A stretch of DNA of 41,680 nt, taken from assembly GCA_005800815.1 (NCBI GenBank), contig SYEK01000016.1:1-41680 (forward strand), in the 5' to 3' direction. The notes beneath the pieces are model-generated. The model made no database searches, was not told the origin of the DNA, and saw nothing but the letters and a program-made list of their open reading frames with translations. Below are positions 9,626 through 26,096 of this stretch, piece after piece. The DNA is from Actinomycetota bacterium. GTDB taxonomy: Bacteria; Actinomycetota; Actinomycetes; Nanopelagicales; Nanopelagicaceae. The position numbers and the translations under genes were made by a program. Each line of letters starts with the position of its first letter. Within the stretch, counting starts at the first letter, position 1.

Positions 9626-10458
9626 GCACGCCGTTGAAAACCGCATTTATCCCAACGATTCCGATCAAAGCCCGTTTCTCGCGCTGGTTTGGTCGTAATC
9701 TTCTGCGCATCTACATGATCTTTGGCTTCACATATCTCTTCATCCCAGTTGCATACACCTTTGTATTCTCATTTAATGATTCTGGAAAGAGTAATCTGAT
9801 TTGGAAGGGCTTTACTCTAGATAATTGGCAGAATCCATGCGGTGCCCCACAGATTTGTAATGCACTTGGTAACTCAATCAAGATTGGCTTACTGGCTACG
9901 ATATTTTCAACGATCCTTGGAACTCTCATCGCCTTTGCAATCGGGCGCTATCACTTTAGAGGCCGCTCAAGCTCAAACCTACTCATCTTTCTACCTATGG
10001 CAACACCTGAGATAGTCCTGGGAGCCTCACTTCTATCACTCTTTCTTGTCTTTAAGATTAATCCAGGATTTTGGCCGACGGTCATCGCTCACGTCGTGTT
10101 TTGTATCTCTTTTGTTGTCGTTACCGTCAAAGCGCGAATCGCGAGTCTAGATCCACGACTTGAACAGGCTGCCATGGATCTGTATGCAAATGAGGTAGAG
10201 ACATTCAGGCGTGTGACCTTGCCATTAGTTGCACCTGGTATTGCAGGGGCGGCTTTGTTGGCCTTCTCACTCTCCTTTGATGATTTCATTATCACCAACT
10301 TTAATTCTGGGACTCTCATCACCTTTCCCAAGTTCGTCTATGTGGCCGCTGCGCGAGGAATCCCTGCACAGGCAAATGTGATCGGCTCCGGGATGTTTTT
10401 CCTAGCCTTAGCCCTTGTCATCGCGGTTCAGATAGTCAATCGTAAGAAAATACGATAA
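9622..10458 (+). CDS. potC: Spermidine/putrescine ABC transporter permease PotC
   Basis: Second membrane subunit of the polyamine importer. 278 aa with six predicted membrane segments and a coupling loop EQAAMDLYAN...FRRVTLPLVAPG. The DDFIITNFNSG block in the C-terminal half is typical of PotC. It starts in the ATGA overlap with potB. It is followed by a 132-base gap holding a structured leader for the next gene, so the pot operon may end here or continue through that leader. No U-rich intrinsic terminator is visible after the stop. Confidence 0.93.
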   Translation: MSTPLKTAFIPTIPIKARFSRWFGRNLLRIYMIFGFTYLFIPVAYTFVFSFNDSGKSNLIWKGFTLDNWQNPCGAPQICNALGNSIKIGLLATIFSTILGTLIAFAIGRYHFRGRSSSNLLIFLPMATPEIVLGASLLSLFLVFKINPGFWPTVIAHVVFCISFVVVTVKARIASLDPRLEQAAMDLYANEVETFRRVTLPLVAPGIAGAALLAFSLSFDDFIITNFNSGTLITFPKFVYVAAARGIPAQANVIGSGMFFLALALVIAVQIVNRKKIR

Positions 10459-10504
10459 CCTTCTGGTACTGCTATAGCGATCGACAGGTTGTAAAGAGAA
10501 AATC

Positions 10505-10590
10505 TGCGCTATGGGGTTAGGTTCCGGAGGACCCGGGCCAACTGCGAGTTGTGATTGAAGGGGTGATTCCGGCCAAGGCCGGATAGCGCG
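10505..10590 (+). promoter_or_regulatory. Structured mRNA leader (riboswitch-like) before the amine oxidase
   Basis: A closing helix P1 pairs GCGCTAT (10506-10512) with ATAGCGC (10583-10589), extendable by a U-G pair. It encloses three hairpins: GGTTC/GGACC (10520-10533, loop CGGA), CAACT/AGTTG (10539-10551, loop GCG) and CCGGC/GCCGG (10569-10582, loop CAAG), plus an unpaired purine-rich strand near 10553-10567. The 3' end touches the start codon at 10591. That start has no adjacent Shine-Dalgarno and sits in a further hairpin, CGATGG/CCATCG (10589-10603). I could not match it to a riboswitch class I know. Helices are read by eye; there is no covariation support. Confidence 0.5.
10511..10558 (+). 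other. Possible 15-codon leader ORF (MGLGSGGPGPTASCD)
   Basis: A short ATG-to-TGA frame lies inside the structured leader, with the weak purine stretch AAAGAGAA ending about 9 bases upstream. The Gly/Pro-rich peptide with PGP could slow ribosomes. It may be chance; its codons overlap the hairpins described for the leader, so RNA structure and coding are competing readings. Confidence 0.2.
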
Positions 10591-12003
10591 ATGGTAACCA
10601 TCGACCCCTCTGTTCTGACCCATCTGAGTTATATGCAGCCGGCCTTGTACTGGCTCGATGAAGATCCCCTCGAACCGATGCCGCATCCAACGCTCATCGG
10701 TGATGTGACGACTAATTTATGTATCGTCGGCGCAGGCTACACAGGTTTGTGGACCGCACTGCTTGCCAAAGAGGCCGATCCGCAGCGTGAAGTCATTATT
10801 GTTGAGCAGAGAGAAACCGGGGCTGGTGCATCGGGTCGTAACGGGGGCTTTTGTAGTTACACACTTACCCATGGATTCATGAATGGCTATACCCGCTTCA
10901 AGGATGAGATGGCCGTTATTGAGCGCATGGGTCGCGAGAATCTGGATGCAATCGAAGCGACAATCAAGAGATATGGAATCGAGTGTGATTTCGAGTGGAA
11001 TGGGGAGCTTCGTGTCGCCGTCCAAGATTGGCAGATGGAGTCGATCTATGAAGAGGCGGCCCTTCGCAACTCCTTCGGCGATAGCGTTGAGGTTTTAAGC
11101 GCCGCCCAGGTGCAGGCCAGGGTGAACTCACCAATATACAAAGGTGCGCTCTGGGATCCAGATGGCACCGCCTTGGTTGATCCTGCGCGTTTGGTCTGGG
11201 GACTTGAGCGTGTCTGTATAAAACTAGGTGTGAAAATCTTTGAAAATACTCATGTAGAAAGAGTCGAGCAGGTGCGCTCTGGGATGATCGTTCACACCCC
11301 ATATGGAGATGTTCACGCCAAGAAAGTGGCTCTTGCCACCAATATCTTCAAATCACTTGTGCGGAGCGCCCATAAATATGTAATCCCTGTCTATGACTTC
11401 CAACTCGTCACCGAGCCTTTGACACCAGCGCAACTCGAATCCATCGGTTGGAGGGAGCGTGAGGGATTATCTGATGCAGGTAATCAATTTCATTACTATC
11501 GAATGACAAAAGACAATGAGATCTTATGGGGTGGATATGATGCAATCTATAACTTCAGCGGCAAGGTGCGCCAAGAGTATGAGTCAGATGCCCAGACCTA
11601 TGCACACTTAGCCGAAGCTTTTTTGGAGACGTTCCCACAACTCAAGGGAATCAAATTCACACATGGTTGGGGAGGCGCGATCGACACCTGTACACGTTTT
11701 TCACCATTCTGGGGATTGGCCCATCGCAAAAGAGTTGCATACGTTATGGGCTATACAGGTTTGGGGGTTGGCTCAACCCGCTTTGGTGCACAGGTAATGC
11801 TCGATCTCTTGGATGGTGTTGATAACGAGCGCACTCGTCTGACGATGGTGCGCAAGAAGCCATGGCCATTTCCTCCCGAACCATTTCGATTCCTCTTCAT
11901 CCGCCTGACGCAATGGTCCATCAATAGAGCAGATCATAAGCAGGGCAGGCGTAACTTGTGGCTTCGAATGCTCGATTCCTTGGGTTTAGGTTTCGATTCT
12001 TAA
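10591..12003 (+). CDS. FAD-dependent amine oxidoreductase, PuuB-like (DAO family)
   Basis: Flavoprotein of the D-amino-acid oxidase family, probably oxidising putrescine or gamma-glutamylputrescine. 470 aa. FAD-binding Rossmann motif GAGYTG at 47-52 with the acidic Glu72, then the GASGRNGG motif at 79-86 that is typical of PuuB-like enzymes. The C-terminal MGYTGLGVGSTRFG closes the FAD site. It lies between the Pot importer and an agmatinase, with an aminobutyraldehyde-type dehydrogenase at the block's start. No PuuA is present in the window, so the glutamylated substrate is not assured. Start: ATG 10591 is taken, but ATG 10633 (MQPALYWLD) fits related N-termini equally well and neither has a good ribosome site. 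Confidence 0.85.
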   Translation: MVTIDPSVLTHLSYMQPALYWLDEDPLEPMPHPTLIGDVTTNLCIVGAGYTGLWTALLAKEADPQREVIIVEQRETGAGASGRNGGFCSYTLTHGFMNGYTRFKDEMAVIERMGRENLDAIEATIKRYGIECDFEWNGELRVAVQDWQMESIYEEAALRNSFGDSVEVLSAAQVQARVNSPIYKGALWDPDGTALVDPARLVWGLERVCIKLGVKIFENTHVERVEQVRSGMIVHTPYGDVHAKKVALATNIFKSLVRSAHKYVIPVYDFQLVTEPLTPAQLESIGWREREGLSDAGNQFHYYRMTKDNEILWGGYDAIYNFSGKVRQEYESDAQTYAHLAEAFLETFPQLKGIKFTHGWGGAIDTCTRFSPFWGLAHRKRVAYVMGYTGLGVGSTRFGAQVMLDLLDGVDNERTRLTMVRKKPWPFPPEPFRFLFIRLTQWSINRADHKQGRRNLWLRMLDSLGLGFDS

Positions 12004-25924: not shown

Positions 25925-26096
25925 ATAAAAATACCTACCCACTAGAGGATGAATGGTCCTCGGTAGTGGTTTCCGCAAGGGCTCTCGAAGGGCGTGCGTG
26001 AACTTCGATCGGAGATTCATTGTTAGTTCTCGGTGTGGTAGCCCGAAATTGAGATAGCTGTTCTTAGCGCTCTCAAAACTAACTAAAGGAGGACCC
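25925..26096 (+). promoter_or_regulatory. pnp leader; Actino-pnp RNA candidate
   Basis: The rpsO-pnp gap holds at least two structural elements. First, an 11-bp hairpin CCACTAGAGGA/TCCTC-GG-TAGTGG (25939-25969) has a 2-base bulge. Second, a long-range helix GTTAGTT (26022-26028)/AACTAAC (26077-26083) closes just before the strong AAAGGAGG site; inside it GAG(AT)AGC can pair with GCTCTC. A conserved motif called Actino-pnp is known upstream of actinobacterial pnp genes. Membership here is inferred from position, not from a model match. Confidence 0.5.

Follow-up and report, generated by a model that had tools for sequence, protein, structure and literature searches.

What kind of RNA, if any, lies between potC and the PuuB-like gene that follows it in this actinobacterial genome? 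In the window, the whole stretch of 41,680 nucleotides that we analysed, potC ends with its TAA at positions 10456–10458, and the gene for an FAD-dependent oxidoreductase begins shortly downstream. The original prediction, made from this sequence alone, described the gap as an unclassified structured leader tied to the oxidoreductase gene, held together by a 7-bp closing helix and possibly switching between two states. Comparison with related genomes supports the existence of such a leader: it is conserved and falls in no Rfam family, but its architecture differs from the one first drawn. The element is also longer in both directions, extending from about 10456 to about 10608, with its 3′ end inside the gene (Table 1). 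Our best reading, to which we give a probability of about two in three, is that it is an undescribed riboswitch-like translational regulator, through which a polyamine-linked small molecule would act on the puuB start site.

The leader and its gene context

The suggestion of a polyamine ligand comes from the gene context. The neighbourhood includes an aminobutyraldehyde dehydrogenase (NF010000) and an agmatinase (TIGR01230), both above their cut-offs, and a potDABC-like transporter in which the match to the potA subfamily is above its cut-off and the other components are below theirs. The acI bacteria, the group to which this genome belongs, are predicted to be polyamine consumers in the relevant passages of one study (PMC5574706). 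The oxidoreductase itself is not firmly named by these searches: its best NCBIfam match is TIGR03329 ("putative aminophosphonate oxidoreductase"), which scores 254 bits against a cut-off of 633, and a search of PDB sequences with the enzyme gave no match at 1e-10. Its reaction is thus putative.

None of the 4,227 families of Rfam 15 reaches its gathering score in the leader, in agreement with the earlier statement that it matches no recognisable riboswitch class; the sole match at E ≤ 10 is to IRES_Bip (E = 5.8, far under the gathering score). The only Rfam match in the window is an Actino-pnp RNA, a known leader, at 25952–26021 on the + strand (54.6 bits, above gathering). When the leader was folded alone its stability was not beyond chance (z = −1.18; 28 of 200 shuffled sequences fold equally well). 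We therefore rejected single-sequence folding as evidence, and conservation had to decide.

Table 1. Coordinates of the proposed leader elements and the downstream gene in the window.
Feature	Position	Strand	Description
TAACCT, probable −10 hexamer	10456–10461	+	overlaps the potC stop codon
P1, 5′ strand CTATAGCG	10472–10479	+	covarying; 6 of 8 pairs with two-sided change, 94.9% of cells paired, 39 leaders
Bulge between P1 and P2	10480–10484	+	5 nt, A-rich, near-constant length in aligned relatives
P2 hairpin	10485–10506	+	10485–10490 with 10501–10506; 6 of 6 pairs with two-sided change, 94.4% paired
Closing helix P1′	10506–10589	+	10506–10512 (GCGCTAT) with 10583–10589 (ATAGCGC); possible in the window, support outside the genus weak
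P1, 3′ strand CGCTATGG	10507–10514	+	same covarying helix as 10472–10479
P3	10515–10543	+	lower helix P3a (10515–10521 with 10538–10543), bulge, upper helix P3b
P3b	10523–10527 with 10533–10537	+	UCCGG/CCGGG, loop AGGAC at 10528–10532; nearly invariant
Shine-Dalgarno-like site AAGGGGUGA	10558–10566	+	41 of the 42 distinct leaders have GGGGUG; L065 has GAGGUG
P7	10560–10608	+	GGGGU 10560–10564 with ACCCC 10604–10608, the latter inside the gene; would enclose P5 and P6 in a three-way lock
P5 hairpin	10568–10583	+	10568–10573 with 10578–10583; between Shine-Dalgarno-like site and AUG
P6, start-codon hairpin	10589–10603	+	10589–10594 with 10598–10603; contains AUG 10591–10593
PuuB-like FAD-dependent oxidoreductase	10591–12003	+	proposed regulated gene; "PuuB-like" is the name given in the original prediction

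A covarying core of three helices

We read 19 loci from the same genus, the window included. Fourteen have the whole leader, one (L017) is cut by a contig end, one (L018) is truncated, and three (L005–L007) have only the last part of it. The alignments used below are A2 (14 of the 15 same-genus leaders, without L017); A4 (47 leaders, without the remnants L005–L007, without L009, L011, L015–L017, L088, L090 and L091, and without further same-genus leaders among L032–L061); A6 (39 leaders aligned by sequence only, with six of the 49 distinct sequences not entered and L092, L095, L169 and L170 omitted for the misalignment of their 5′ ends in A5); and A7 (the 42 distinct sequences among the 47 leaders).

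Comparison of these sequences establishes a fold in which P1, P2 and P3 form a core that is 72 nt long in the window. In A6, 12 of the 14 pairs of P1 and P2 change on both sides in at least some leaders, and about 95% of the cells are paired. In this MAFFT alignment, which was not fitted to the structure, there are 106 cells with two-sided changes, compared to 29.6 in shuffles, and 93.3% of cells are paired in register, compared to 28–48% when the pairing is slid. Because the shuffles ignore relatedness among the leaders, the slide control and the second family described below weigh more. The lower part of P3 is less regular–three pairs of P3a change on both sides, with re-pairing seen in L098, and one pair (49/71) is unpaired in 25 of the 39 leaders. 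The locus has one feature of a riboswitch, a conserved and covarying RNA domain in a 5′ leader, with the 5′ end placed by the promoter-like box discussed below.

The original prediction had taken the closing helix P1′ as the defining structure and P1 as its alternative. The sequences it relied on are all present: the two strands of P1′ are fully complementary and end one base before the ATG, and the upstream ATAGCG (10474–10479) is able to pair with CGCTAT. The roles are the reverse of those proposed, with strong covariation in the supposed alternative P1 and weak covariation in P1′. Within the genus, P1′ is 96.7% paired with no two-sided changes. Over the 47 leaders of several genera it is 67.7% paired, compared to 35.5–56.9% in slid versions, with 19 cells changed on both sides, compared to 7.4 in shuffles. 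A subset of genera may thus keep the closing helix, but it is not a general structure as judged from these alignments, and we rejected it as the main one because it pairs only in part outside the genus. The proposal that P1′ alternates with P1 as a two-state switch draws on the nearly equal predicted energies of the two folds (−41.4 and −41.1 kcal/mol, in the window up to the AUG), as well as on the signs of P1′ in some genera. We regard such a switch as distinctly unlikely: about one third of the P1′ cells are unpaired over the 47 leaders, two-sided change is absent within the genus, P1 has a probability above 0.5 in 41 of 47 leaders once coding sequence is included, P1′ itself makes no contact with the ribosome site, and the predicted accessibility of the ribosome site and AUG hardly changes when P1 is forced or blocked.

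The covariation of the helices as RNA also bears on a different type of regulation. In the speF leader, an upstream open reading frame encodes a leader peptide that senses through ribosome stalling, and a comparable peptide here could sense an amino acid or polyamine. The window does contain a 15-codon frame, MGLGSGGPGPTASCD, but a frame of at least six codons occurs at any one start position in at most 17 of the 47 leaders. With no upstream frame conserved over the 47 leaders, we rejected the speF-type arrangement, which seems to us scarcely credible.

The element is linked to a single gene

A covariance model built from the 14 same-genus leaders (R1) matches 129 of the 296 genomes of the order (Nanopelagicales, the acI freshwater actinobacteria), representing 10 of its 17 genera; 122 of these genomes have a single match and 7 have two. 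Twelve of the 129 matches are weak (E-values from 9e-4 to 9.5e-8), and the three of these that we read are remnants. Conservation and covariation in relatives, on which the original prediction had staked its leader, are therefore found for the element as a whole. A pattern scan located the element in Candidatus Planktophila lacus (NZ_CP016769.1), in Actinobacteria bacterium IMCC26077, and in records from Ca. Nanopelagicaceae and Nanopelagicales; 57 of the 58 stretches it returned fit a wider covariance model (R2), and the other (L164, from Acidimicrobiia) is a chance match. An acI-type element also occurs in public MAG records under the titles Bifidobacterium breve, Streptomycetaceae or Fonsibacter (L108, L112, L116, L121, L123, L159; L134, L145; L110), and these titles look wrong.

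Of 60 relatives searched, 36 have a PuuB-type match. In 45 of the 46 relatives in A4, the element runs up to the start codon of a PuuB match; in the remaining one (L069) only 16 codons of a similar frame precede the contig end. Across the order, element and PuuB occur together in 127 genomes, only the element in 2 (each time at a contig end), only PuuB in 16, and neither in 151 (Fisher's exact test, P = 1.4 × 10−62). The link extends beyond pot-linked loci–no pot permease match lies near the element in 10 loci for which upstream DNA is available (L066, L068, L071, L076, L083, L085, L087, L094, L098 and L099), four of them having only a 29–31% match to the transport ATPase. Seven of the 10, for which we listed the open frames, appear to have varied neighbours. 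One further locus, L073, has no upstream DNA. Sequence comparison thus ties the element to one gene, and since it is seen before this gene only, its context hardly narrows the choice of ligand.

The 16 genomes with PuuB alone are of several kinds. The gene is truncated in G030, G261 and G297, the core lies at a contig end in L225, and L230 is masked. L222 and L223 have lost P1–P3 and kept the part comprising ribosome site, hairpin and AUG, L218 is a remnant, and the element was not seen in the 170 nt read at L224 and L227–L229. Loss of P1–P3 with the gene retained, as in several of these relatives, is expected of a regulatory module. At four loci (L219–L221 and L226) the leader is missing and the ATG lies 13–18 nt after the potC stop codon; these perhaps have a near-leaderless puuB mRNA, a natural loss of the regulator. 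Loci where P1–P3 is gone and the ribosome site, P5-type hairpin and AUG are kept (L005–L007, L218, L222 and L223) belong to two genera.

A second family shares the core but not the 3′ part

Searching 394 genomes of the class with R2, we found nothing outside the family with an E-value better than 0.009 per genome. We read seven of the weak matches: five have no PuuB in the DNA stretch examined, and the other two, from genus g82 in a second family (f38), are homologues located directly 5′ of a PuuB homologue with 51% identity. An aptamer-only model (R3) matches 9 of the 17 f38 genomes at E ≤ 0.1. All eight of the matches that we inspected (the ninth, in G649, is outside this count) are 5′ of PuuB, with 51–53% identity. 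In sequence, their P1, P2 and P3a are not the same as in the first family. Seven of the 8 predicted folds contain P1 and a P3 with UCCGG-AGGAC-CCGGG (the exception is L203), and P2 appears as expected in 6 of 8 (the exceptions are L203 and L205). By eye, the f38 leaders have no GGGGUG site and no P5-type hairpin, and instead have a GGAG- or GAGG-like site after P3. Because f38 keeps P1–P3 with a different 3′ part, the P1–P3 domain seems to be separable from the translation platform.

Wider searches gave little beyond f38. Outside the family, R3 matched 24 genomes at E ≤ 0.1, 4 of them f38, and none of the 7 that we read among the 20 non-f38 genomes has PuuB nearby. In the order that includes G612, 11 of 166 genomes match, and the three non-f38 matches in this order have no PuuB in the DNA examined and no intact core. 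Eleven PuuB-like loci from other families (L021–L031) have no convincing element, the best R3 E-value among 24 sources, with these 11 counted in, being 0.038.

The conservation of P3b across two families could reflect recognition by a protein–either the enzyme itself or another regulator that binds the hairpin and blocks or helps translation. A near-invariant hairpin that has a bulge and a loop fixed at 5 nt, in front of a single target gene, would suit a protein equally well, but both families conserve P1, the bulge and P2 alongside P3, which is more than a simple hairpin site needs. We consider a protein-binding site unlikely, though worth keeping in mind.

A promoter-like box upstream of P1

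All 54 loci with sufficient upstream DNA have a TAnnnT hexamer that lies 6–12 nt 5′ of P1; they include the 8 f38 loci and the 10 without a pot permease match (L073, whose contig ends 6 nt upstream, was left out). In each of five windows of the same width placed further upstream as controls, the motif occurs in only 0–4 of the 54; this comparison is to be read with the distance range having been picked after reading the sequences, and with the potC stop codon contributing to the motif in pot-linked loci. A scan of 10300–10700 for paired −35 and −10 hexamers of the sigma-70 type found none. Comparison thus reveals a conserved promoter-like box, and its presence before P1 in 54 of 54 loci suggests that transcripts probably begin at P1. 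From the position of the box, transcription in the window probably starts at about 10468. The alternative −10 box considered earlier, TATAGC, is unlikely, as TAACCT is the hexamer that sits at the conserved distance.

Comparison with known RNAs

The guanidine-I (ykkC) riboswitch resembles the leader in having a GGUUCCG-like conserved string. Searches with the ykkC and SAM-I (Rfam SAM) models gave no hits in the window leader at E ≤ 10, or in 12 related loci at E ≤ 0.5. The spermidine riboswitch is described, in the passages of Salvail et al. 2023 (PMC10853860) that deal with it, as a four-stem variant of SAM-I that acts by transcription termination on biosynthesis genes. It is similar in kind to our element, being a leader RNA for polyamine genes (speB is one of them), but the leader here folds differently, precedes a catabolic-looking gene and has no terminator-like site. 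The same passages call earlier evidence for polyamine riboswitches unconvincing, and present the spermidine class as rare, with 13 examples on synthesis genes. Two candidate regulatory RNAs found before polyamine genes are the potE motif, known from Veillonella and environmental samples, with weak covariation support and a distance of about 200 nt from the gene, and the odc1 motif, a stem with a pseudoknot that is grouped with upstream-ORF elements (both as outlined in PMC8632094). Going by these outlines, our leader is set apart from both, with strong covariation and no conserved upstream ORF. THI, FMN and cobalamin riboswitches, also metabolite leaders, are reported from acI genomes in PMC5301498, a study that searched only a few named Rfam models, and none of them matches the leader. 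In the portions covered of the open-licence literature on polyamine riboswitches, candidate riboswitches and acI bacteria, PMC11109978 included, the element is not described.

A start site predicted to be closed

The original prediction noted that the ATG lies in a hairpin, which is present (P6) and conserved in relatives, and that it has no adjacent ribosome site. The latter is formally correct, but it overlooks a conserved ribosome-site-like sequence that is separated from the AUG by the P5 hairpin. P5 has 95% of its cells paired over the 47 leaders, with two-sided change in 2 of 6 pairs, in an alignment fitted to P5. In the 42 distinct leaders, P6 is 92.5% paired with two-sided change in 1 of 6 pairs, and P7 is 92.4% paired with no two-sided change. 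Of the 47 predicted folds (from the ribosome site to codon 12), 43 include P6 and 30 include P7, and in those without P7 the ribosome site mostly pairs differently. Since P6 and P7 overlap conserved codons–the ACCC of P7 lies in codons 5–6 of the gene–and only 1 of their 11 pairs shows two-sided change, protein constraint may explain much of their pairing.

Folding in full context predicts that both the ribosome site and the AUG are buried: the probability of being free is below 0.1 for the AUG in 44 of 47 leaders, and below 0.5 for the ribosome site in all 47. Among 25 ATG-start frames of at least 180 codons in the window, the puuB start has the lowest folding energy and is the only one whose AUG has a probability of being free of at most 0.01, compared to a median of 0.61. 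A scan of 10300–10700 found no terminator-like site, which fits translational control. When P1 or P3b was blocked or forced in silico, the site and AUG remained buried, and no switch was visible at the level of predicted secondary structure. Coupling between the domain and the start site is therefore not explained by secondary structure.

This insensitivity would be expected if the leader had no sensor at all, and consisted of a 5′ hairpin that stabilises the mRNA together with a clamp on the start site, possibly an RNA thermometer. Such an arrangement would also accommodate the loci that keep the 3′ part after losing P1–P3, but it leaves unexplained both the sequence conservation of P3b across two families and the occurrence of P1–P3 with a different 3′ part in f38. 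We think it improbable, and a riboswitch-type reading still appears to be the best one for these sequences. Under the riboswitch-like reading, the puuB mRNA would have a 5′ leader that is probably transcribed from a promoter of its own, located where potC ends, and starts at or just 5′ of P1. P1–P2–P3 would be a compact receptor-like domain, with the P3b hairpin as its invariant part. By default translation would be off or low, with the Shine-Dalgarno-like site paired (in P7 in most leaders) and the AUG in P6, around P5. A small molecule tied to imported polyamine, or to its breakdown, would bind P1–P3 and alter access to the start site. The simplest direction is that translation is turned on when substrate is present, a choice based on the catabolic look of the gene and the apparently closed default state. 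In a more specific version, the leader would be the first example of a new riboswitch class: its P1–P2–P3 receptor with the AGGAC loop would respond to putrescine, agmatine or an intermediate of breakdown, open the buried start and so induce a polyamine oxidase in abundant freshwater actinobacteria, and the second actinobacterial family would have the same receptor joined to another platform. This version is tentative, and we would put it at somewhat less than even odds.

In an abundant freshwater group, this covarying leader accompanies one gene of the polyamine-catabolism type, a second family is available for comparison, and P1–P3 is small enough for a direct binding test to be feasible. 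Should it bind a ligand, the element would show how these streamlined cells sense organic compounds rich in nitrogen, and would help in finding the substrate of the PuuB-like enzyme.

The sequence GGGGU occurs twice in the leader, at the P1/P3 junction (10513–10517) and in the ribosome site, and either copy could pair with the ACCC in the gene. The idea that the two copies compete for it was set aside, GGGG not being kept in f38, as was a strand swap between P3b and P5 (by eye, both contain CCGG), for which L076 breaks the CCGG in P5. In genus g32 (L083, L085 and L087) P6 and P7 are absent, and the GGG of the ribosome site is predicted to pair with a CCC just 5′ of the AUG, perhaps an independent way of hiding the site.
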